Of a stretch of DNA of 64,000 bases, positions 381-12,688 are shown in pieces. The stretch is from the NCBI RefSeq assembly GCF_001886715.1, contig NZ_CP018082.1, positions 2,542,001-2,606,000 on the forward strand. The letters run 5' to 3'. The DNA is from Nocardia mangyaensis. Lineage in GTDB: Bacteria; Actinomycetota; Actinomycetes; Mycobacteriales; Mycobacteriaceae. A model generated the notes under the pieces. The model saw only the letters and a program-made list of their open reading frames with translations, was not told the origin of the DNA and did not search any database. Every line of letters starts with the position of its first letter. Position 1 is the first letter of the stretch. The position numbers and the translations under genes are program-made.

Positions 381-2213
381 ATGACATCGGATCGGTTGAT
401 CGCGGGACGCTATCGACTCACCGACCCGATCGGCACGGGCGCGATGGGGGTGGTGTGGCGAGCCACCGACGTGCGGTTGCGCCGCACCGTCGCGGTGAAG
501 CAGGTGCTGCTAGCACCCGGCCTCACCGGCTCGCAGGCGCTGGAGGCGAAGCTGCGCGCCATGCGCGAGGGCCGGATCGCCGCGCGTCTGCATCATCCCA
601 ACGCCATCACCGTCTTCGACGTGGCCGAGGAAGACGGCCAGCCCTGGCTGGTCATGGAATACATGAACGCACCCAGCCTGGCCGCCAAGCTGGCCGGTGG
701 CGCGACGTTGCCGCCGATCGAGGTGGCCGGCATCGGCGCCCAGGCCGCCGCGGCGTTGTCGGCCGCGCACGACGCCGGGATCATGCACCGGGACGTGAAG
801 CCGGCCAATCTGCTCGTCGGTGACGACGGCACCGTCAAGATCACCGACTTCGGCATCTCGCATGCCACCGGCGACGTCACCGTGACGGCGACCGGGTTCC
901 TGGCGGGTACCCCCGCCTACCTGGCGCCCGAGATCGCGCGCGGCGACAGGCCCAAATCCGCCGCCGACGTCTTCGCCCTGGGCTCCACGCTCTACGCCGC
1001 CGTCGAGGGCGCCCCGCCGTTCGGCGAGGGCGACAACCCCCTGGCGGTGCTGCACGCCGTGGCGCGCGGAACGGTGCCGGAGCCGAAGAACGCGGGCCCG
1101 CTCGGCCCGGTACTGATGTGGCTGCTGACCGCGGACCTGGAGCACCGCCCGACCATGGCTGCGGCCCGGCTGGCGCTGGAAGATGTCGCGGCGGGGCGGG
1201 TTCCGTCGCTGCCCGCCTCGCTGACCAAGGTGCTTCCGGTGAGCGAGGCGGCCACCACGCTGCTGCCACGGCCGGGGCAGGGCGCTGGGACCGACGGTGC
1301 GAAGTCGGGAGCGGCCGCACTGCTCGGCAGCGGTCTCGCCTTCGCCAAGGCGGCCCGCTCGGCGATCACCGGGGGATCGTCCTCGCCGCGTTCCGGCGGA
1401 GCCGGTGCGGGGGCCGGATCCGCGGGCGAGCTCGCGCAGACGCCAGGCTCGGATGCCGCGGTGCGCGCGAACACGGCAACCGCCGGATCCGACCGCGACC
1501 ACGACGCCGCACCCACCGGATCGGGCCGCCCGCCCGTCTTCCCCACCCCGCCCGCGCGCAGCGACTCGGCGACCAACAGCCGCGCCGTCCTGCTGCTCGC
1601 CGCCGCCGTCGCCGCGTTCGCGGTGATGCTGGTCGTCCTGGTCGTCACCCGGGAACGGGGCGCCGACCCCGGCCAGCAGGCCCAGACACCGCCGCCCGCG
1701 GTCACCGTGACAACGATGGTCGACGGCAAGGTGAGCACCGTGGTGATCGTCCCCGAACAGGAGACCATCACCGTCCCGGCACCCGTCCCGCCCGCCCCCG
1801 ACGGCTCGGCCGCCCCGGCGAGCACCTCACCGACGCCGACCAGTACCTCCGGCGCCCCCACCTCGACACCGTCGGCCACCAGCACCACCACGACCCCGGC
1901 CGGACCTCCCTCGCCGGACCGGATCAACCAGTTCATCGCCGGGTATTACGGCATGTTGCCGGGCAATGTCGGCGGGGCGTGGGCTCAGCTGGCCCCCGGC
2001 TATCAGGCCCAGACCGGCGGCTACGGTCAGTACTCCTCGTTCTGGTCGACGGTGCGGTCGGTGAGTGTCGGCTCGATCACCCCCAACGGCCGCAACCGGG
2101 CGGTGGTCACGCTGACCTATCACCTCACCAACGGCACCGTGACCTCGGAGAACCGCTGGATCGAGGTCACCGGCGACGCGGGCGGCCTGCGGATCGCCGG
2201 ATCGGGCGTCTGA
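381..2213 (+). CDS. Transmembrane Ser/Thr protein kinase (PknB-type, Hanks family)
   Basis: 610 residues. Residues about 11-270 form a eukaryotic-like kinase domain: Gly loop IGTGAMGVVW, ATP lysine K40 in AVKQ, catalytic loop HRDVKPAN (D138), DFG at D156 and APE further on. A Ser/Ala/Gly-rich linker (about 275-400) leads to one membrane segment (about 402-423, LLLAAAVAAFAVMLVVLVV), a Pro/Thr-rich stalk and an extracellular domain of about 90 residues that I do not recognise (no PASTA motif). An ATG start with SD AGGAGG 9 nt upstream supports the start. The protein probably phosphorylates cytosolic proteins in response to an envelope signal. It stands alone between metH and a HAD phosphatase, each side separated by a hairpin, so substrate and signal are unknown. 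Confidence 0.9.
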   Translation: MTSDRLIAGRYRLTDPIGTGAMGVVWRATDVRLRRTVAVKQVLLAPGLTGSQALEAKLRAMREGRIAARLHHPNAITVFDVAEEDGQPWLVMEYMNAPSLAAKLAGGATLPPIEVAGIGAQAAAALSAAHDAGIMHRDVKPANLLVGDDGTVKITDFGISHATGDVTVTATGFLAGTPAYLAPEIARGDRPKSAADVFALGSTLYAAVEGAPPFGEGDNPLAVLHAVARGTVPEPKNAGPLGPVLMWLLTADLEHRPTMAAARLALEDVAAGRVPSLPASLTKVLPVSEAATTLLPRPGQGAGTDGAKSGAAALLGSGLAFAKAARSAITGGSSSPRSGGAGAGAGSAGELAQTPGSDAAVRANTATAGSDRDHDAAPTGSGRPPVFPTPPARSDSATNSRAVLLLAAAVAAFAVMLVVLVVTRERGADPGQQAQTPPPAVTVTTMVDGKVSTVVIVPEQETITVPAPVPPAPDGSAAPASTSPTPTSTSGAPTSTPSATSTTTTPAGPPSPDRINQFIAGYYGMLPGNVGGAWAQLAPGYQAQTGGYGQYSSFWSTVRSVSVGSITPNGRNRAVVTLTYHLTNGTVTSENRWIEVTGDAGGLRIAGSGV

Positions 2214-2292: not shown

Positions 2293-2964
2293 GTGAGCGC
2301 GCGACCGGCCGCGGTGTTGTGGGACATGGACGGCACGCTGCTCGATTCGGAGAAGCTGTGGGACATCGCGGTGCGCGAACTCGCCCGCGAACACGGCAGT
2401 GAACTCACCGACGCGGTCCGCCACGCCCTGATCGGCGCTTCCGGGCCGAACGCGCTGCGCATGCTGTTCGACGGCATCGGCGTCGAGACCACGCCGGAGA
2501 TCCTGGTCGCGGCGGGGGAGTTCCTCGAGCGCCGGGTCACCGAACTGATGCTCGGTCCGATCCCGTGGCGACCGGGCGCCAAGGACGCGCTGGCGATGGT
2601 GCGCGAGGCCGGGCTGCGCTGCGCGCTGGTGACCAACACCAAGCGTTCGCTGACCGAGTACGGACTCGACACCCTCGGCCGGGACTTCTTCGACACCTCG
2701 GTCTGCGGTGACGAGGTGGCGCACGGCAAGCCCGAACCCCACATCTATCGCCGGGCCGCCGAACTGCTCGGCGTCGATCCCCGTGACTGCGTGGCGATCG
2801 AGGACTCACCCACCGGCGCGCTCGCGGCACAGGGCGCGGGTTGCGGTCTGATCGTGATTCCGTGCGAGATCGCGGTTCCCGAGGCGCCGGGGCGGGTATT
2901 CCGGGAGTCGCTGGTCGGTTTGTCGGTCCCCGATCTGCGCGTCGCCCTCGCCGCGCGTGTCTGA
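2293..2964 (+). CDS. HAD-superfamily hydrolase (beta-phosphoglucomutase/phosphatase-like)
   Basis: 223 residues, GTG start. The N-terminal motif WDMDGTLLDS gives the nucleophile D11 and acid/base D13. Motif II is VTNT. The lysine of GKPEP and the acidic motif IEDSPTGALAA complete the HAD signature. The helical cap inserted after motif I makes it a subclass I enzyme of the phosphoglycolate phosphatase / beta-phosphoglucomutase type. Likely a cytosolic small-molecule phosphatase; the substrate cannot be read from sequence. It follows the kinase by 79 bp and precedes the dioxygenase cassette by 180 bp of AT-richer DNA, so it is probably its own unit. Confidence 0.85.
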   Translation: MSARPAAVLWDMDGTLLDSEKLWDIAVRELAREHGSELTDAVRHALIGASGPNALRMLFDGIGVETTPEILVAAGEFLERRVTELMLGPIPWRPGAKDALAMVREAGLRCALVTNTKRSLTEYGLDTLGRDFFDTSVCGDEVAHGKPEPHIYRRAAELLGVDPRDCVAIEDSPTGALAAQGAGCGLIVIPCEIAVPEAPGRVFRESLVGLSVPDLRVALAARV

Positions 2965-3144
2965 ACATATCGGCGGCGCAGCGCGATAGGGCGAAATAGC
3001 CTACCGTGATAATTCCGAAACCGTAGTGTCATTCGCGAAAACTGTTGCCGCACAGTTGAATTCGCAGTCTTGTGATCTGTTCGGGATACGAGTTGTTTAC
3101 CGAAACCCCGGGCGTGTCATCGAAATTTCCCGCAAAATGAATCC

Positions 3145-4008
3145 ATGACAGGCACGCGGGGGCTTGACGAAATCGTCGATATCGCACGGTATCCGCTCAC
3201 CGATCTCGGTGGTCCGGGTCGGCGCGCCGCGGTCGAGGCCGCCCGCGCCGAACTGGCCGAGGACGGCTGTACGGTGCTGCGGGAGTTCATCCGCCCGGAG
3301 CTGCTCGACACGCTCCGCGTGGAGGGGGAGCGGATCGCCCCGCACGCCCACTACAAGTCCGAACGGGTCAACGCCTACAACATCCCGCTCGACACCGACC
3401 TCCCCGACGATCACCCGGCCCGGATCGTGCTCGACCGCGGCAACGCCTTCGTGGCCCGCGACCGCATCCCCGCCGAGGCGCTGATCCAGCGCCTCTACAC
3501 CGATCCGGTGTTCCAGCGTTTCGTGGCCGACTGCTTCGAACTCGACGAACTGCACGAATTCGCCGATCCGCTGGCCGGGCTGTGCCTGAACGTGGTCGAG
3601 CCGGGCATGTCGCATCCCTGGCACTTCGACACCAACGAATTCACCGTCAGCATGCTCACCCGGCGCCCGGACACCGGTGGCGTCTTCGAGTACTGCCCCA
3701 ACATCCGCGACCCGCACGCCGAGCATCTCGACGACGTGCGTGCCGTGCTCACCGGGGACGGCGGGCGGCTCATCCGCGCGCTGGCACTGCGCCCCGGCGA
3801 CCTGCAGCTGTTCAAGGGCCGCTTCTCCCTGCATCGCGTCACCGAGGTGGCCGGTGCGGGTCAACGACATTCGGCGATCTTCGCCTACACGGACCGGCCT
3901 GGGGTGATCGGCACTGTCGAACGCACCAGGCAGCTGTTCGGCCGTGTTCTGCCCGACCATGTGGCCGCCGCGGCCGACGCCGTCCGAGGTGACCGACTGC
4001 TCGACTGA
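3145..4008 (+). CDS. Fe(II)/2-oxoglutarate-dependent dioxygenase, amino-acid hydroxylase-like
   Basis: 287 residues, ATG start. The iron-binding facial triad is visible: H160 and D162 in WHFDTNEFTVSM and distal H230 in SLHRVTEV, with R241 a likely 2-oxoglutarate ligand. The block around HFDTNEF and GGVFEYCPN recalls the family containing BesD-type lysine halogenases and related hydroxylases. Here the acidic ligand Asp is kept, where halogenases have Gly, so hydroxylation rather than chlorination is expected. It is the first gene of a tight set (12 bp to the methyltransferase, then 10 bp to a carnitine-type acyltransferase), so it probably hydroxylates the molecule the other two modify. Family placement is from recalled motifs; the substrate is unknown. 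An AT-rich promoter region lies upstream. Confidence 0.75.
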   Translation: MTGTRGLDEIVDIARYPLTDLGGPGRRAAVEAARAELAEDGCTVLREFIRPELLDTLRVEGERIAPHAHYKSERVNAYNIPLDTDLPDDHPARIVLDRGNAFVARDRIPAEALIQRLYTDPVFQRFVADCFELDELHEFADPLAGLCLNVVEPGMSHPWHFDTNEFTVSMLTRRPDTGGVFEYCPNIRDPHAEHLDDVRAVLTGDGGRLIRALALRPGDLQLFKGRFSLHRVTEVAGAGQRHSAIFAYTDRPGVIGTVERTRQLFGRVLPDHVAAAADAVRGDRLLD

Positions 4009-4020
4009 GAGGAACCGCCC

Positions 4021-4836
4021 ATGTCCGTTCCGTTGCACACCACTGGCAAAGCATCCTTCGACGACATCTACGAAAGCCCTGATCCGCGCGCGTACTTCGC
4101 CCGGATGAACGACCTGGACTATCGGATTCCGGAACTGGCCAAGCCGTTGTTCCAGGAGCAGTTGCGGCAGTTGCGGGCGGCGCGACCGGGCCGGATTCCG
4201 ACCGTCCTCGATCTCGGATGCTCCTACGGGGTGAACGCGGCACTGTTGCGGACGGACACGACCGTCGAGGAACTCGCCGGGCACTATCGCGATCACGCCG
4301 AGACCGACCGGGTCGGGCTGATCGCCGCGGACCGGGAGCGGTTGCGCGCCGACCAGATTCCCGACGTACGCTTCGTCGGGATGGACGCCGCACGCCCGGC
4401 GCTGACCTATGCCCACGCCGCCGGATTCCTGCACGACTACGTGCACGCCGACCTCGAGGCCACCGAGCCGACCGAGGCGCAGCGCCGTGTGCTCGCCTCG
4501 GCCGATCTGGTCATCTCCACCGGGTGCGTCGGCTACATCACCGAGAAAACCCTGTCCAGGGTCGCGCAGGCCGATCCGCGCAAGCGACCGTGGATGGCGC
4601 ATTTCGTGTTGCGGATGTTCGATTTCGACCCGATCGCCGCCGAGCTCGCCGCGCTGGGCTACCGCAGTGAGCAGCGGCCCGGTATGTTCCAGCAGCGTCG
4701 CTTCGCCTCCGCGCAGGAACGTCAACAGGTGCTGGATGCGTTGGCGGCCAAGGGAATCGACACCACCGATCACGAAGCCGAGGGCTGGCTCTACGCCAAC
4801 CTGTTCCTGTCCCGCCCGCATCCCATCGAAACCTGA
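4021..4836 (+). CDS. Class I SAM-dependent methyltransferase
   Basis: 271 residues; ATG start, with SD GAGAGG about 7 nt upstream. Motif I is VLDLGCSYGVNAALL (about residues 61-75), the expected beta1/glycine loop of Rossmann methyltransferases. A later STGCVGYIT segment is consistent with beta4. It sits 12 bp after the dioxygenase and 10 bp before the acyltransferase, so the three are almost certainly co-transcribed. A plausible role is N-methylation of an amino group to a quaternary (betaine) centre, which would create the carnitine-like substrate expected by the third gene. This is inference from the neighbours; the methyl acceptor cannot be deduced directly. Confidence 0.75.
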   Translation: MSVPLHTTGKASFDDIYESPDPRAYFARMNDLDYRIPELAKPLFQEQLRQLRAARPGRIPTVLDLGCSYGVNAALLRTDTTVEELAGHYRDHAETDRVGLIAADRERLRADQIPDVRFVGMDAARPALTYAHAAGFLHDYVHADLEATEPTEAQRRVLASADLVISTGCVGYITEKTLSRVAQADPRKRPWMAHFVLRMFDFDPIAAELAALGYRSEQRPGMFQQRRFASAQERQQVLDALAAKGIDTTDHEAEGWLYANLFLSRPHPIET

Positions 4837-4846
4837 GGACTTGGAT

Positions 4847-6661
4847 TTGAACCAACCCACGTTCGCCGCCGAAGACACCCTGCCCCGGGTGCCGCTGCCG
4901 ACACTGGAGGACAGTTGCGCGCGGTTCCTGCGGTGGTGTCAGCCGTTGCTCGGCGCCGAGGACTACGCCACCACCGAGGGCGCGGTAGCCGAGCTGCTGC
5001 GCCCCGGTGGGGCCGGGCGCACCCTGCACGCCGCGCTGGCCGACTACGACGCCACCCCCGGGGTCGGTAGCTGGCTCGACGAGTTCTGGCCCTCGCGCTA
5101 CCTCGGTCGTCGTGACCGAATCGCGCTGAACGCCAACTTCGTGTTCCTGTTCCGCGATGACACCCCGCTGGCCGCCTCGACGGTGGCCGGGCAGGCCGAG
5201 CGGGCCGCGGCGATCATCGGCGCCGCCGTCGACTACAAGCTGGCGCTGGACACCGAGACGGTCCCGCCGGTCACCCAGCGGGGGCAGCAGCTGTCGATGT
5301 GGCAGAACGAGTACCTGTTCTCCGAGACCCGGATCCCGGGCGAGGTGCAGGACACCGTCCGCAAGCCCTACAGCGCGGAATGGCCCGGCCCCTCCGATGC
5401 CCGCCACATCGCGGTCTTCTACCGCGGCAACATCTTCCGGATGGAGGTGATCGGCGCCGACGGCGCGCCGTACGCCTTCGACGATGTCGTCGACGGGCTG
5501 CGCGCGGTGATCAAGGGCGGTACCAAGCCCGCGGCCACCGACACCTCGGTGGGTCACCTGACCACCAAGGCACGTGCCGAGTGGGCGCGCAGCCGGGCCA
5601 CCCTGCGCACCGAAGCCGCCAATGTCGCCGCCTTCGACACGATCGAGACGGCGCTGTTCTCGGTATGTCTCGAGGACTTCGCCCCGCGCGACGAACTGCA
5701 CGCCTGCGATCAGCTGCTGCACGGTGACAGCGCCAATCGCTACTTCGACAAGTCGGTGTCGTTCATCGTCTTCGCCGACGGCCAGGCCGGGATCAACATC
5801 GAGCACTGCGGGCTCGACGGCACCACCGTGCTCTCGTTCGTCGACGCCCTGCTCGAGCGGCCCGCCCAGGATCACGCCGAGACCAGCGGCGCGCGCGCCC
5901 AGGGACTGCCCTCGGTGGAGCCGATCGAGTTCGTCCTCGACTCGGCCGCCCGCGCCGACATCGCCGCGGCCGGCGCCGACTTCGCCCGCTTCGCCGCCGA
6001 CACCGCGACCTCGCTGGTCTCGTTCGACGACTTCGGCACCGGCGCCGCCAAGAAGCTCGGCATCTCACCCGACGCCTTCGCTCAGCTCAGCTACCAGCTC
6101 GCCCACCGGCGCAGCAAGGGGCTGACCGGAGCCACCTACGAGTCCATCGCGACCCGGCAGTTCCGCAACGGCCGCACCGAGGCCATGCGCGTGGTGACCC
6201 CGGAGATGGTGGCCTTCGTCGACGCCATGGTCGACGAGTCGGTCGATCGCGAGGCCGAGCTCGCCGCCGCTCGCACCGCCGCGGCCGCGCACGTGGGCCG
6301 GGCCAAGGAGTGCCAGGCCGGGCAGGCGCCCGAGCAGCACCTGTGGGAACTGCAATGGATCCAGCGCCGTCGCGGCGAGGAACTCGGCGTCGCCGACGAG
6401 CGGATCGCACTGTTCGACAGCCCCGGCTGGACGATCATGCGCGACGACTACCTGAGCACCAGCTCGGCGCCCTCGCAGTACATCCGCTACTTCGGCTTCG
6501 GCTCCACCAGCCCGAAGTGCATCGGCATCGCCTACGTGCTGCTGCCGGACCGCTGGAACATCTACCTGGCCACCCCCAAGTCGGTCTCCGACGAGATGTA
6601 CGCCTTCGCCGACCACCTGCGCACCGCGGTCGCCGACCTGCGTCAGCTCCTGGCCGACTGA
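4847..6661 (+). CDS. Choline/carnitine O-acyltransferase family protein
   Basis: 604 residues, close to the roughly 600-650 of carnitine acyltransferases. The start is TTG 4847 with SD GAGGA 8 nt upstream; TTG 4841 is an alternative. The N-terminus VPLPTLEDSCARFLRWCQPLL matches the family opening LPxPxLxxTxxxYL. The catalytic histidine is H320 in INIEHCGLDG, the family's EHxxxDG motif, and a C-terminal STSSAPSQ matches the STSQ substrate loop. The reaction is reversible transfer of an acyl group from CoA to a hydroxyl of a quaternary-ammonium alcohol. This family is mainly eukaryotic and sporadic in bacteria. Its position directly after a hydroxylase and a methyltransferase suggests it esterifies their product. 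A large imperfect inverted repeat follows. Confidence 0.85.
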   Translation: MNQPTFAAEDTLPRVPLPTLEDSCARFLRWCQPLLGAEDYATTEGAVAELLRPGGAGRTLHAALADYDATPGVGSWLDEFWPSRYLGRRDRIALNANFVFLFRDDTPLAASTVAGQAERAAAIIGAAVDYKLALDTETVPPVTQRGQQLSMWQNEYLFSETRIPGEVQDTVRKPYSAEWPGPSDARHIAVFYRGNIFRMEVIGADGAPYAFDDVVDGLRAVIKGGTKPAATDTSVGHLTTKARAEWARSRATLRTEAANVAAFDTIETALFSVCLEDFAPRDELHACDQLLHGDSANRYFDKSVSFIVFADGQAGINIEHCGLDGTTVLSFVDALLERPAQDHAETSGARAQGLPSVEPIEFVLDSAARADIAAAGADFARFAADTATSLVSFDDFGTGAAKKLGISPDAFAQLSYQLAHRRSKGLTGATYESIATRQFRNGRTEAMRVVTPEMVAFVDAMVDESVDREAELAAARTAAAAHVGRAKECQAGQAPEQHLWELQWIQRRRGEELGVADERIALFDSPGWTIMRDDYLSTSSAPSQYIRYFGFGSTSPKCIGIAYVLLPDRWNIYLATPKSVSDEMYAFADHLRTAVADLRQLLAD

Positions 6662-6732
6662 GTCCGTAGGCTGACCGCCGTTGACCGGCCCCGCACCCGC
6701 GACCTCGAGGAGCGGCGGCCGCGAAGCGGTCG

Positions 6733-6817
6733 GTTCGCGGCCGGGTCCGCTCAGCGCTCGAAGCGCATGCGCCGCAGGCGCGAGTCTCGAGTGCTGAGCG
6801 GTGGCCCGGCCGCGAAC
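6733..6817 (+). repeat. Long imperfect inverted repeat between the acyltransferase gene and hisE
   Basis: The outer arms GTTCGCGGCCGGG and CCCGGCCGCGAAC are exact complements. They continue inward through CCGCTCAGC / GCTGAGCGG and weaker CTCGA pairing, giving arms of about 35 nt around a small GC-rich core. It could be the terminator of the three-gene cassette, a folded leader for hisE, or a small palindromic repeat element. No gene fits in the 185-bp gap. Confidence 0.7.
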
Positions 6818-6846
6818 ACGCGGCGCCCGCGCCGCCGAGAAGGCGT

Positions 6847-7128
6847 GTGAAAGAATCATCCACCGTGAAGAACTTCGAATCCCTGTTCGCCGAGCTGACC
6901 GACCGTGCCCAGACCCGCCCCGAGGGGTCGGGCACCGTGGCCGCGTTGGACGCCGGGGTTCATTTCCAGGGTAAGAAGGTGCTCGAGGAGGCCGGCGAGA
7001 TCTGGCTGGCCGCCGAGCACGAGAGCGACGAGGCCCTCGCCGAGGAGATCTCCCAGTTGCTGTACTGGGTCCAGGTGATGATGGTGGGTCGCGGGCTGAA
7101 GCTCGAGGACGTGTACCGACATCTGTGA
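6847..7128 (+). CDS. hisE: Phosphoribosyl-ATP pyrophosphatase
   Basis: 93 residues, the same length as the M. tuberculosis protein as recalled. HisE hydrolyses phosphoribosyl-ATP to phosphoribosyl-AMP, the second step of histidine synthesis. The MazG-like helical motif [18 protein letters not shown] with EEISQLLYW supplies the metal-binding Glu residues. GTG 6847 is preferred because it gives the usual N-terminus; a second GTG at 6865 is possible. hisG follows after 53 bp with its own SD, so the two are probably one transcript, with hisE first as in mycobacteria. Confidence 0.95.
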
Positions 7129-9164: not shown

Positions 9165-9265
9165 ACCGCCGCCACCGACACCGATCGCTGAGGATTCGGG
9201 CCAGACGGCATCAGCGTGTGCGGTCACCCCGTGCGGTGGGTGATCGCGCCGACCTGGCAGGCTGA

Positions 9266-10129
<864 letters not shown>

Positions 10130-10146
10130 CGGGGGAGCCGGGCTGG

Positions 10147-10173
10147 CCCGGGGTGTGACGCAACTACCCCGGG
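10147..10173. terminator. Bidirectional hairpin between trmI and the lipoprotein gene
   Basis: CCCGGGGT and ACCCCGGG pair around an 11-nt loop in the 58-bp gap between the two convergent genes. Confidence 0.6.
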
Positions 10174-10187
10174 GCGCGGACGAGTCG

Positions 10188-10724
10188 TCAGGCAGGCACG
10201 CAGGGGGCCTGTGCGAAGCCCAGCAGCAGGCAGCCGGAGCTGTCGGAGATCAGCCACTCGCCGTCGACCTTCTCGAAGGTGACGGGGAAGGCGGGCGCGG
10301 TACCGTGCGGCGAGGTGATGGTGACATCCGCGGTGGTGGTGTCGCCGCTGGTCGCGACGTTGGCGACGTCATAGGTGAGGGCGCCGTAGTTGGCCAGCTG
10401 GCCGTTCATCTGGTCGATGTTGGCCCGGCGGGCCTCGCCGTTGACGATCAGCGCCGTCTTGTCGTCGGCGGACACGGCCGGATCCGACAGCATGGCCAGG
10501 GTCGCCGTCAGGGAATCGGCGGTGGGGGCGTCGGCGTTGTCACCGGACGGCGCGGCCGGTGTGGTCGAATCGCTGGACGGAGCGGCGGCGATACTGGTAC
10601 TGCTGCTGGTGGCGTTCGTCGAGGAATCGTCGGAGTCGCCGCAACCGGTCAGCCCGACGGTAACGGCGAGTGCCGCAGCAGCGGTAGCGATGGTGACACG
10701 GAGAGTACGGGGAGGAAGGAGCAT
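10188..10724 (-). CDS. Secreted lipoprotein, Mtb12-antigen-like (LppK position)
   Basis: 178 residues. A signal peptide ends in the lipobox LTGC (C28), so the mature protein should be lipid-anchored outside the cytoplasmic membrane. A Ser/Thr/Pro-rich linker (about 30-65) precedes a 110-residue domain with NIDQMNGQLANYG and TADVTI, which resembles the low-molecular-weight antigen Mtb12 fold. It sits where lppK (Rv2116) lies in M. tuberculosis, next to mpa. Function is not established. A palindrome like an iron-regulator site is about 60 bp upstream of the start. Confidence 0.75.
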   Translation of the reverse strand: MLLPPRTLRVTIATAAAALAVTVGLTGCGDSDDSSTNATSSSTSIAAAPSSDSTTPAAPSGDNADAPTADSLTATLAMLSDPAVSADDKTALIVNGEARRANIDQMNGQLANYGALTYDVANVATSGDTTTADVTITSPHGTAPAFPVTFEKVDGEWLISDSSGCLLLGFAQAPCVPA

Positions 10725-10785
10725 GGCTCAGCAACCTTTCGGCTCGATGGCGAGCGCGCTCGCCGACGACCCCGGAGATGGGGTG

Positions 10786-10804
10786 TTAGGGGAGCCTAAC
10801 ATGT
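10786..10804 (-). promoter_or_regulatory. Possible IdeR/DtxR-type iron box
   Basis: The palindrome GTTAGG-ggag-CCTAAC matches 13 of 19 positions of the recalled IdeR consensus TTAGGTTAGGCTAACCTAA. It lies 62 bp upstream of the lipoprotein start and about 125 bp upstream of mpa. The arms are exact but the centre is off consensus. Confidence 0.4.
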
Positions 10805-10927
10805 GCACGGACGGGCCCATCGCCGTGTGAACCCGTACAAGATGTGATCACGACGAAACCATGTCGGAAAGCGAGAACGGACCGCGCCCGGTAGCGTTGA
10901 TAGACCGGGACTGGGAGGAGCAGCATC

Positions 10928-12688
10928 ATGAGCCCCAACGAGAATTCGGATTCGGCGGCCTGGCGAGAGCTCGAGGCGGTACGCGCCGAGGCGGCTGCTC
11001 TCCGCAGGCAACTCGCCGACTCGCCGGATCGCGCACGCGAATTGGAAGCCAGGATCGATTCGCTGACCATCCGCAACGGTAAGTTGATGGACACGCTCAA
11101 GGAAGCGCGCCAGCAACTGATCGCCTTGCGGGAAGAGGTCGATCGCCTCGGCCAGCCGCCCAGCGGCTACGGCATCGTGATCAACACCTACGATGACCAG
11201 ACGGTCGACGTGTTCACCTCCGGTCGCAAGATGCGCCTCACCTGCTCGCCCAACATTGATGCTGCCACCCTCGAATACGGCCAGACCGTGCGACTCAACG
11301 AGGCACTCACGGTCGTGGAGGCCGGCAAGTTCGACGCCATCGGTGAAATCGGCACGCTGCGTGAGATTCTCGACGACAGTCGCCGTGCTCTCGTGGTCGG
11401 GCACGCCGACGAGGAGCGGGTGGTCTGGCTCTCGGGTCCGCTGTCCAAGCTCGCCGAGTTCGACGACCTCGACGATCCCGATGCCCCGATTCGCAAACTG
11501 CGTCCCGGTGATTCACTGCTGGTCGACACCAAGGCGGGCTTCGCGTTCGAGCGCATCCCCAAGGCCGAGGTCGAAGACCTTGTGCTGGAAGAGGTTCCCG
11601 ACGTCGACTACACCGACATCGGTGGCCTCGGCAGGCAGATCGAGCAGATCCGCGACGCGGTGGAATTGCCCTTCCTGCACAAGGATCTGTTCCGTGAGTA
11701 CGCGCTGCGCCCGCCCAAGGGTGTGCTGCTCTACGGTCCGCCCGGCTGCGGTAAGACCCTGATCGCCAAGGCGGTCGCCAACTCCCTCGCCAAGAAGATC
11801 GCCGAGTCGCGGGGCCAGGATGCCAAGGAGGCCAAGTCCTTCTTCCTCAACATCAAGGGCCCCGAGCTGCTCAACAAATTCGTCGGTGAGACCGAGCGTC
11901 ATATCCGGATCATCTTCCAGCGGGCCCGCGAGAAGGCGTCCGAGGGCACCCCGGTGATCGTGTTCTTCGACGAGATGGACTCGATCTTCCGCACCCGTGG
12001 CTCCGGTGTCTCCTCCGATGTGGAGACCACCGTTGTGCCGCAGCTGCTTTCGGAGATCGACGGTGTCGAGGGTCTCGAGAACGTCATCGTGATCGGTGCG
12101 TCCAACCGCGAGGACATGATCGACCCCGCGATCCTGCGACCCGGTCGTCTCGATGTGAAGATCAAGATCGAGCGCCCGGACGCGGAATCGGCGCAGGACA
12201 TCTTCTCGAAGTACCTCACCGAGACGCTGCCGCTGCACGAGAGCGATCTGCGCGAGTTCGACGGCGACAAGCAGGCGTGCGTGGAGGCGATGATCGAAAA
12301 GGTCGTCGAGCGGATGTACGCCGAGAGCGACGACAACCGGTTCCTGGAGGTCACCTACGCCAACGGTGACAAGGAAGTCCTGTACTTCAAGGACTTCAAC
12401 TCCGGCGCGATGATCCAGAACATCGTCGACCGCGCGAAGAAGTACGCGATCAAGTCGGTTCTCGACACCGGTAACCCGGGTCTGCGGATCCAGCACCTGT
12501 TCGACTCGATCGTCGACGAGTTCGCCGAGAACGAGGACCTGCCCAACACCACGAATCCGGATGACTGGGCCCGGATCTCGGGCAAGAAGGGCGAGCGGAT
12601 CGTCTACATCCGGACCTTGGTCACCGGCAAGAACGCCTCGGCCAGCCGGGCGATCGACACCGAGTCCAACACCGGTCAGTACCTGTAA
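10928..12688 (+). CDS. mpa: Proteasome-associated ATPase (Mpa/ARC)
   Basis: 586 residues. This hexameric AAA+ unfoldase recruits pupylated proteins and threads them into the 20S proteasome. Residues about 8-75 form the coiled coil that binds Pup. OB-type interdomain segments follow to about 225. The AAA domain has Walker A GPPGCGKT (270-277), Walker [11 protein letters not shown] (D348, E349) and the second-region RPGRLD. The C-terminal GQYL is the proteasome-docking tail. The ATG start has SD GGAGGAG. It has its own promoter region and terminator, apart from the dop-pup-prc genes 17 kb away. Confidence 0.97.

Follow-up and report, generated by a model that had tools for sequence, protein, structure and literature searches.

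The window analysed here is a 64,000-nucleotide stretch of the Nocardia mangyaensis genome (NZ_CP018082.1, positions 2,542,001 to 2,606,000), and coordinates are window positions. It contains three consecutive open reading frames on the + strand, here called OXY, MT and CAT, which would encode a hydroxylase, a methyltransferase and an acyltransferase (Table 1). The initial annotation, made from the sequence alone, placed the genes 12 and 10 bp apart, and the reading frames and both gaps (12 bp between OXY and MT, 10 bp between MT and CAT) were confirmed. From left to right the order is metH, a kinase gene, a HAD hydrolase gene, the OXY-MT-CAT cassette, hisE and hisG. A profile search of the whole 7.31 Mb genome identified one PF00755 protein and two PF23169 proteins.

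Table 1. Genes of the cassette and its flanks, in window positions
Feature	Position	Strand	Remarks
OXY, Fe(II)/2-oxoglutarate hydroxylase, HalD/BesD fold	3145..4008	+	287 aa, ATG start; PF23169
MT, class I S-adenosylmethionine methyltransferase, uncharacterised family	4021..4836	+	271 aa, ATG start; VLDLGCSYG motif
CAT, carnitine/choline-acyltransferase homologue	4847..6661	+	604 aa, TTG start; PF00755, human CrAT match E=4e-68
HAD hydrolase gene	2293..2964	+	left flank, outside module; PF00702/PF13419; adjoins hisE in relatives lacking the cassette at this site
hisE	6865..7128	+	right flank, outside module; PF01503 E=2.9e-9
Ser/Thr protein kinase gene	381-2213		between metH and HAD gene
metH-type gene	ends at about 163		Pfam-confirmed

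Linkage of OXY, MT and CAT

Within Nocardia the cassette is close to universal. CAT was found in 149 of the 150 genomes of the genus, that of N. mangyaensis included, and 76 of 77 Nocardia loci from named records match all three genes in the order OXY-MT-CAT, the remaining one (L079) starting inside CAT at a contig end. All three genes are present at more than 80% of their length in 72 of the 77; in L064, L072, L073 and L079 the locus breaks off at a contig end or close to one, and in L080 the matches to MT and CAT are broken. This last locus (Nocardia crassostreae, 9203-11796) could reflect a pseudogene or a sequencing error. hisE follows CAT at a distance of 53-2527 bp in all 70 loci that have both on the stretch. 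The median ratios of nonsynonymous to synonymous substitution (dN/dS), taken for the window against 11 relatives, are 0.130 for OXY, 0.098 for MT and 0.132 for CAT, with 0.066 for hisG (9 relatives) as a comparison. Because these medians lie at 0.10-0.13, the three genes are under purifying selection.

In a sample of 298 genomes of the order, CAT occurs in 35, OXY in 34 and both in 33 (Fisher p 2.5e-40, not corrected for shared ancestry). The genomes with CAT alone (G438 and G467) carry divergent copies, while the single genome with OXY alone (G466) has a copy at 34% identity. OXY and CAT lie 14-1065 bp apart in all 33 genomes and share a strand in 32; in G551 they stand tail to tail. The gap is 828-1065 bp in 26 of the 33, with MT inside it every time, and 14-130 bp in the other seven. 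MT was found in 26 of 47 genomes searched, all of them CAT carriers, and the 21 MT-free genomes are 20 that lack CAT plus G805, where CAT is at 29% identity.

Outside Nocardia the cassette sits at other genomic sites, with the exception of L197, which has the Nocardia site. In the Streptomyces-type genus g101 a close CAT relative is present in 14 of 116 genomes, and the six such loci inspected comprise four with OXY-MT-CAT and two with OXY-CAT. On a Hyphomicrobiaceae contig (L076) OXY and MT point away from CAT and are still adjacent to it, and L191 has an MT-CAT pair without OXY. MT has also been fused to CAT at least once: among the 120 CAT homologues listed of 1838 found there are seven fusions, whose N-terminal MT domain is 51-55% identical to the MT of the window. 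When the distance matrices of OXY, MT and CAT are compared, r is 0.88-0.92 over 73 Nocardia-site cassettes and 0.90-0.92 over 22 others, values also expected from common descent.

Because fusions, rearrangement and changes of site occur together, a shared function for the three genes is much more likely than chance. The suggestion that the three act together is borne out by their co-occurrence, by adjacency at different sites and by the MT-CAT fusions. The initial annotation had called for a check of co-occurrence and had taken homologues that rarely cluster as a sign against it; close homologues do cluster, and distant relatives of OXY and MT occur alone.

To describe the gene context we used single-linkage clustering of open reading frames around 46 loci (one of which, L205, has no cassette), a clustering that chained 170 reading frames, most of them overlapping, into a single group; 53 of these frames lie outside the cassette. 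Among these 46 loci there was no conserved gene for a dedicated precursor, or any other partner, beside the cassette. Most neighbour groups found in 7-9 loci belong to the his-metH flank of Nocardia and Skermania, and the neighbours that cross genera are a short-chain dehydrogenase/reductase (SDR)-like group (8 loci, six from one genus) and a major facilitator superfamily (MFS)-like group (8 loci). A search of 72,556 plasmid records gave no match to CAT.

Active sites of the three proteins

The residue comparisons use tblastn rows that are free of stops and cover more than 85% of the query (105 of 106 for OXY, 98 of 99 for MT and 112 of 115 for CAT), to which the window row was added. Alignments A1 and A2, of 31 and 36 rows, were thinned at 80% identity. 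The initial annotation had described intact active sites, which held across relatives for all three proteins.

OXY matches PF23169 (HalD) at E=3.9e-12 and 46.5 bits, above the cut-off of 26. The best Foldseek matches of its AlphaFold2 (AF2) model, which has a predicted local distance difference test score (pLDDT) of 90.7, are HalB, HalD, BesD and a lysine hydroxylase (PDB 7JSD), with a lowest E of 6.8e-16; for the best eight the template modelling (TM) score on the query is 0.60-0.65 and the identity 16-19%. The family match and the BesD-like predicted fold place OXY with the HalD/BesD-fold Fe/2-oxoglutarate enzymes. In the HalD/BesD halogenases Gly or Ala replaces the carboxylate of the metal-binding triad. 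The OXY triad H160/D162/H230, Asp162 included, is invariant across an alignment of 106 rows, made up of 105 loci and the window, and so is R241, which is likely to be the 2-oxoglutarate-binding Arg. Judged by these residues, the complete triad makes the active site hydroxylase-type and not halogenase-type, despite the public name “HalD/BesD family halogenase”. Halogenase function was considered and is ruled out by the triad, which agrees with the proposal that one enzyme of the set hydroxylates.

According to PMC13244439, BesD binds the carboxylate of its substrate by R77, H137 and W241 and the amino group by D239, D143 and E123. These positions were mapped onto OXY by motif spacing and by hhalign against the other HalD protein of the genome, which left D239, R77 and W241 without a place. 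On this mapping the carboxylate-binding H137 of BesD corresponds to His157 of OXY, kept in all 106 rows. OXY shares with BesD, HalB, HalD and 7JSD the predicted fold, the HxD/G...H core and the position of this His, but differs from the BesD/HalB/HalD lysine and ornithine halogenases in its low identity, its triad Asp, and Leu143 and Thr163.

The second HalD/BesD protein of the genome (C1:5862488-5863144; counterpart at L205 7983-8744 on the - strand) is much closer to HalD/BesD than OXY is, with PF23169 at E=3.8e-87. Its motif HGWHWDD combines a hydroxylase-type triad with the amino-group-binding Asp of BesD.

MT has only sub-threshold Pfam matches, all to methyltransferase families (E=0.003-0.004). 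In its VLDLGCSYG motif D64, S68, Y69 and G70 are invariant in 36 rows, and L63, G66 and C67 are kept in at least 90% of them. The AF2 model (pLDDT 92.5) matched varied class I methyltransferases only, with a best E of 9.6e-8 and TM on the query of at most 0.46 among the 50 matches listed, and no convincing sequence relative was found in the PDB. Plant and nematode phosphoethanolamine methyltransferases share the generic class I fold with MT, but at TM on the query of at most 0.40 and with no family relation shown.

The OXY and MT families are wider than the cassette, because distant relatives of both occur without CAT. Stand-alone MT relatives of 36-43% identity lie in 14 Streptomyces-type loci. 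CAT and OXY are both missing from the stretch in 13 of these, and at most two of the 14 have any one neighbour in common. Four further genomes have MT relatives elsewhere (L236-L240), whose context gave no hint.

CAT matches PF00755 over model positions 1-573 of 574 (E=1e-155, 520 bits, cut-off 22.3), and with this full-length domain and its catalytic His it belongs to the carnitine/choline acyltransferase superfamily. Residues were mapped to carnitine acetyltransferase (CrAT) from the catalytic His, with an offset of 21 to mouse numbering. The same offset is given in PMC11852590, from which the CrAT roles of H343, K419, K423, D430 and E453 were taken, K419 being one of two CoA-phosphate lysines.

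H320 of CAT, equivalent to mouse H343, is found in 74 of 74 Nocardia rows and in all of the 120 listed homologues, over which the counts that follow were made. K423, D430, Y452, E453, S554 and F566 are likewise kept in 120 of 120, and T465 in 118. Three positions differ from CrAT throughout (R518 to Q, T467 to A and V569 to T, with similar counts at the genome loci), and M564 is F in 118. The Gln at position 518 is present in 74 of 74 Nocardia-site CATs and 29 of 30 other cassette CATs. A dead acyltransferase is ruled out by the catalytic His and the purifying selection. CAT is therefore like CrAT in its full-length match, catalytic His, STS motif, Lys423, Asp430 and Glu453, but unlike it in having Gln518, Ala467, Phe564 and no Lys419, and in adjoining OXY and MT, at times fused to MT.

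We take Arg518 of CrAT to bind the carboxylate of carnitine, and Thr465 and Thr467 to be further residues of the carnitine pocket, Thr467 on the carboxylate side. Ser554 and Phe566 presumably line the ammonium side, and Met564 is assumed to sit in the acyl tunnel and govern acyl length. The Arg expected for carnitine at position 518 is Gln in CAT, which, with the carboxylate side changed and the ammonium side kept, suggests that the acceptor is probably not carnitine, though related to it. Choline acetyltransferase has Val/Asn/Asn at CrAT positions 465/467/518, where the window CAT has Thr/Ala/Gln, which does not match. Given the Phe at position 564, a long acyl chain on the product is unlikely and a short one is indicated.

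Among the cassette CATs aligned, Arg518 is kept only in L200 (6253-9758, genome G118 of the same genus), a genome that has, besides the standard set, another complete OXY-MT-CAT set of 48-59% identity. With its Arg518 this CAT may produce another ester. The genus also has a divergent second group of CATs (L199 7968-9758, L201, L204 and L207), which keeps Arg518 and has Glu for the catalytic His (EESGLDG), with MFS transporter and D-2-hydroxyacid dehydrogenase genes nearby (Pfam-checked in L199 and L201). PF00755 proteins of 25-26% identity in genus g3 of the same family (L198 and L206, genomes of about 2.5 Mb) keep Arg518 on stretches without OXY or MT, and it is possible that these are real carnitine acyltransferases. 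In the Streptomyces-type locus L301 (87-12412) a distant CAT of 28% identity lies in a row with a nonribosomal peptide synthetase (NRPS)-type protein with a terminal reductase-like domain, a class III aminotransferase and two methyltransferases, and an MT relative follows about 5 kb beyond. From its gene content this row looks like a biosynthetic cluster that uses a CAT.

A proposed pathway and its alternatives

The view that OXY, MT and CAT form a self-contained tailoring module, which would hydroxylate, methylate and O-acylate one small molecule from ordinary metabolism, has in our estimate an even chance of being right. In Nocardia and some other soil bacteria the module probably acts on a molecule that resembles carnitine and is apparently not identical to it. 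OXY, with its predicted fold and complete triad, would add a hydroxyl to an aliphatic carbon of a substrate recognised by its carboxylate, for which an amino acid or the betaine of one is the likeliest candidate. MT, adjacent or fused to CAT, would methylate the same molecule, most likely on the amino nitrogen to give a quaternary ammonium, so that a trimethylated acceptor for CAT may be supposed. CAT would then move a short acyl group from acyl-CoA onto the new hydroxyl. The result would be a short O-acyl ester whose acceptor part is an amino-acid derivative other than carnitine, hydroxylated and probably N-methylated, since Ser554 and Phe566 on the ammonium side are kept while Arg518 and Thr467 on the carboxylate side are changed. 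Because CrAT works reversibly, such an ester could store acyl groups and so spare CoA; a signal or a protective solute is equally open.

The acyl-carnitine-like lipid first proposed does not fit Gln for Arg518 and Phe for Met564, which indicate a different acceptor and a short acyl group, and a narrower reading is called for, in which a small molecule that is hydroxylated and probably methylated carries a short-chain O-acyl ester. A sharper version, unlikely in all its detail, would make the product a Nocardia analogue of carnitine: an O-acyl ester of a beta-hydroxy amino-acid betaine with ammonium and hydroxyl in the 1,2 relation of carnitine and choline and the carboxylate elsewhere, hence the Gln for Arg518. 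Short acyl groups (acetyl, propionyl) would be carried on it reversibly and without CoA, in nearly every member of the genus and, piecemeal, in other actinobacteria.

Several observations weigh against the module as described. MT is absent from seven of the 33 OXY-CAT loci of the order sample, and in five of those genomes (G612, G661, G572, G551 and G627) none was found genome-wide; G610 and G647 have the OXY-CAT pair without MT at the locus and an MT relative elsewhere. Because five genomes hold OXY and CAT side by side with no MT found, the smallest unit is OXY plus CAT, to which MT is often added, and methylation is therefore not always needed. The idea that MT makes a betaine is plausible. 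In g101, 22 of the 37 positive genomes matched the MT-CAT query in the MT part only. Distant OXY relatives occur without CAT in 15 of 18 OXY-positive genomes of a 376-genome phylum sample, and neither MT nor CAT lay beside OXY in the 14 of those 15 whose loci were inspected.

On the side of the residues, at least 117 of the 120 listed homologues have T, A, S, G or Q in place of CrAT K419, and the argument uses presumed roles for Arg518, Tyr452, Thr465, Thr467, Ser554, Phe566, Val569 and Met564. The BesD amino-group acids E123 and D143 correspond to Leu143 (104 of 106 rows) and Thr163 (103 of 106) in OXY, which thus lacks these two acids of a free-lysine hydroxylase or halogenase. The BesD-like fold and the carboxylate-binding His agree with the early suggestion that OXY acts on a free amino acid, but the loss of two lysine-amino-binding acids does not; what would fit is a substrate that bears a carboxylate and has no free ammonium there, such as a betaine or an amino acid whose side chain is neutral. 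G054, an assembly of 1340 contigs, is the single genome of the genus in which CAT was not found; MT was also not found, and OXY was not searched there. The 9 kb inspected of its hisE-hisG contig contained none of OXY, MT and CAT, nor the HAD and metH flank, so that either gene loss or an assembly gap may explain it.

Of the alternatives, a non-quaternary acceptor is the most serious, though we consider it somewhat unlikely. MT would then be a C-, O- or carboxyl-methyltransferase and CAT would acylate an ordinary alcohol in the tailoring of a specialised metabolite. No enzyme of known substrate is close to MT in structure or sequence, MT is dispensable, Arg518 is replaced by Gln, and the distant CAT of L301 stands among genes of an NRPS-type row. 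The constant Ser554 and Phe566, presumed ammonium-side residues, argue against this, as does the absence of a conserved dedicated precursor gene.

A true carnitine pathway, with OXY a gamma-butyrobetaine-type hydroxylase and CAT forming acylcarnitine, is improbable. We take gamma-butyrobetaine hydroxylase to belong to a different protein family from OXY. Carnitine biosynthesis resembles the module in that a small carboxylate-bearing molecule is hydroxylated and later O-acylated, but the acceptor pocket of CAT is apparently not that of carnitine. CAT is similar overall to animal CrAT, with Tyr452 and Thr465 kept as counted above, and a review table has Nocardia crassa under gamma-butyrobetaine hydroxylase (PMC2131755). 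Against this stand the Gln for Arg518 as counted above, the Arg518 kept instead in the L198 and L206 proteins and in the divergent Nocardia group, and the lack of a conserved partner gene; gamma-butyrobetaine, moreover, would need no MT.

It is very improbable that MT is a passenger acting on an unrelated RNA or protein, with OXY and CAT as the real pathway. The seven loci with OXY and CAT only and the stand-alone MT relatives of the Streptomyces-type loci would agree with it, but not the seven MT-CAT fusion entries, the position of MT between OXY and CAT in 26 of 33 loci, or the MT-CAT pair of L191. That the genes are chance neighbours kept together solely by shared ancestry in Nocardia has a negligible probability: most named-locus copies do come from one genus and one site, but this chance adjacency is rejected by linkage at different sites in other genera and on a proteobacterial contig, with orientation differing in two cases, and by the fusions.

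The module as preferred here, with a hydroxylated and probably methylated acceptor, would be a new pathway made of known enzyme families. The initial annotation knew of no described pathway with these three enzymes, and no description of the combination came up among the papers listed in searches of a limited collection. Eukaryotic metabolism relies centrally on moving acyl groups between CoA and hydroxylated quaternary amines (carnitine, acetylcholine), and we know of no described pathway in bacteria that makes the acceptor for an acyltransferase of this kind. A near-universal Nocardia module with natural fusions offers a direct experimental route to the product. For this group of proteins the database names “HalD/BesD family halogenase” and “carnitine O-acetyltransferase” would both mislead.

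Flanking genes

A scan of positions 2900-6900 found no promoters or terminators, against shuffle means of 0.4 and 1.2. The cassette was first described as an insertion in metH-hisE gene order, which holds in outline: in 3 of 13 other genomes with a comparable stretch (L266, L272 and L274) a HAD match is followed within 22-70 bp by a hisE match, without the cassette. The kinase and HAD genes nevertheless intervene in the window, and other genomes vary, the rest of the 13 having different DNA at the HAD-hisE site or no HAD gene found. The kinase gene has a match on two of the 13 stretches (L262 and L269).

In two Nocardia loci a gene for a pyridine-nucleotide-disulphide oxidoreductase lies between MT and CAT (L035 8315-9808 and L041 8447-9829, Pfam-checked in L041). 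L038 and L040 have the same MT-CAT spacing as these two.

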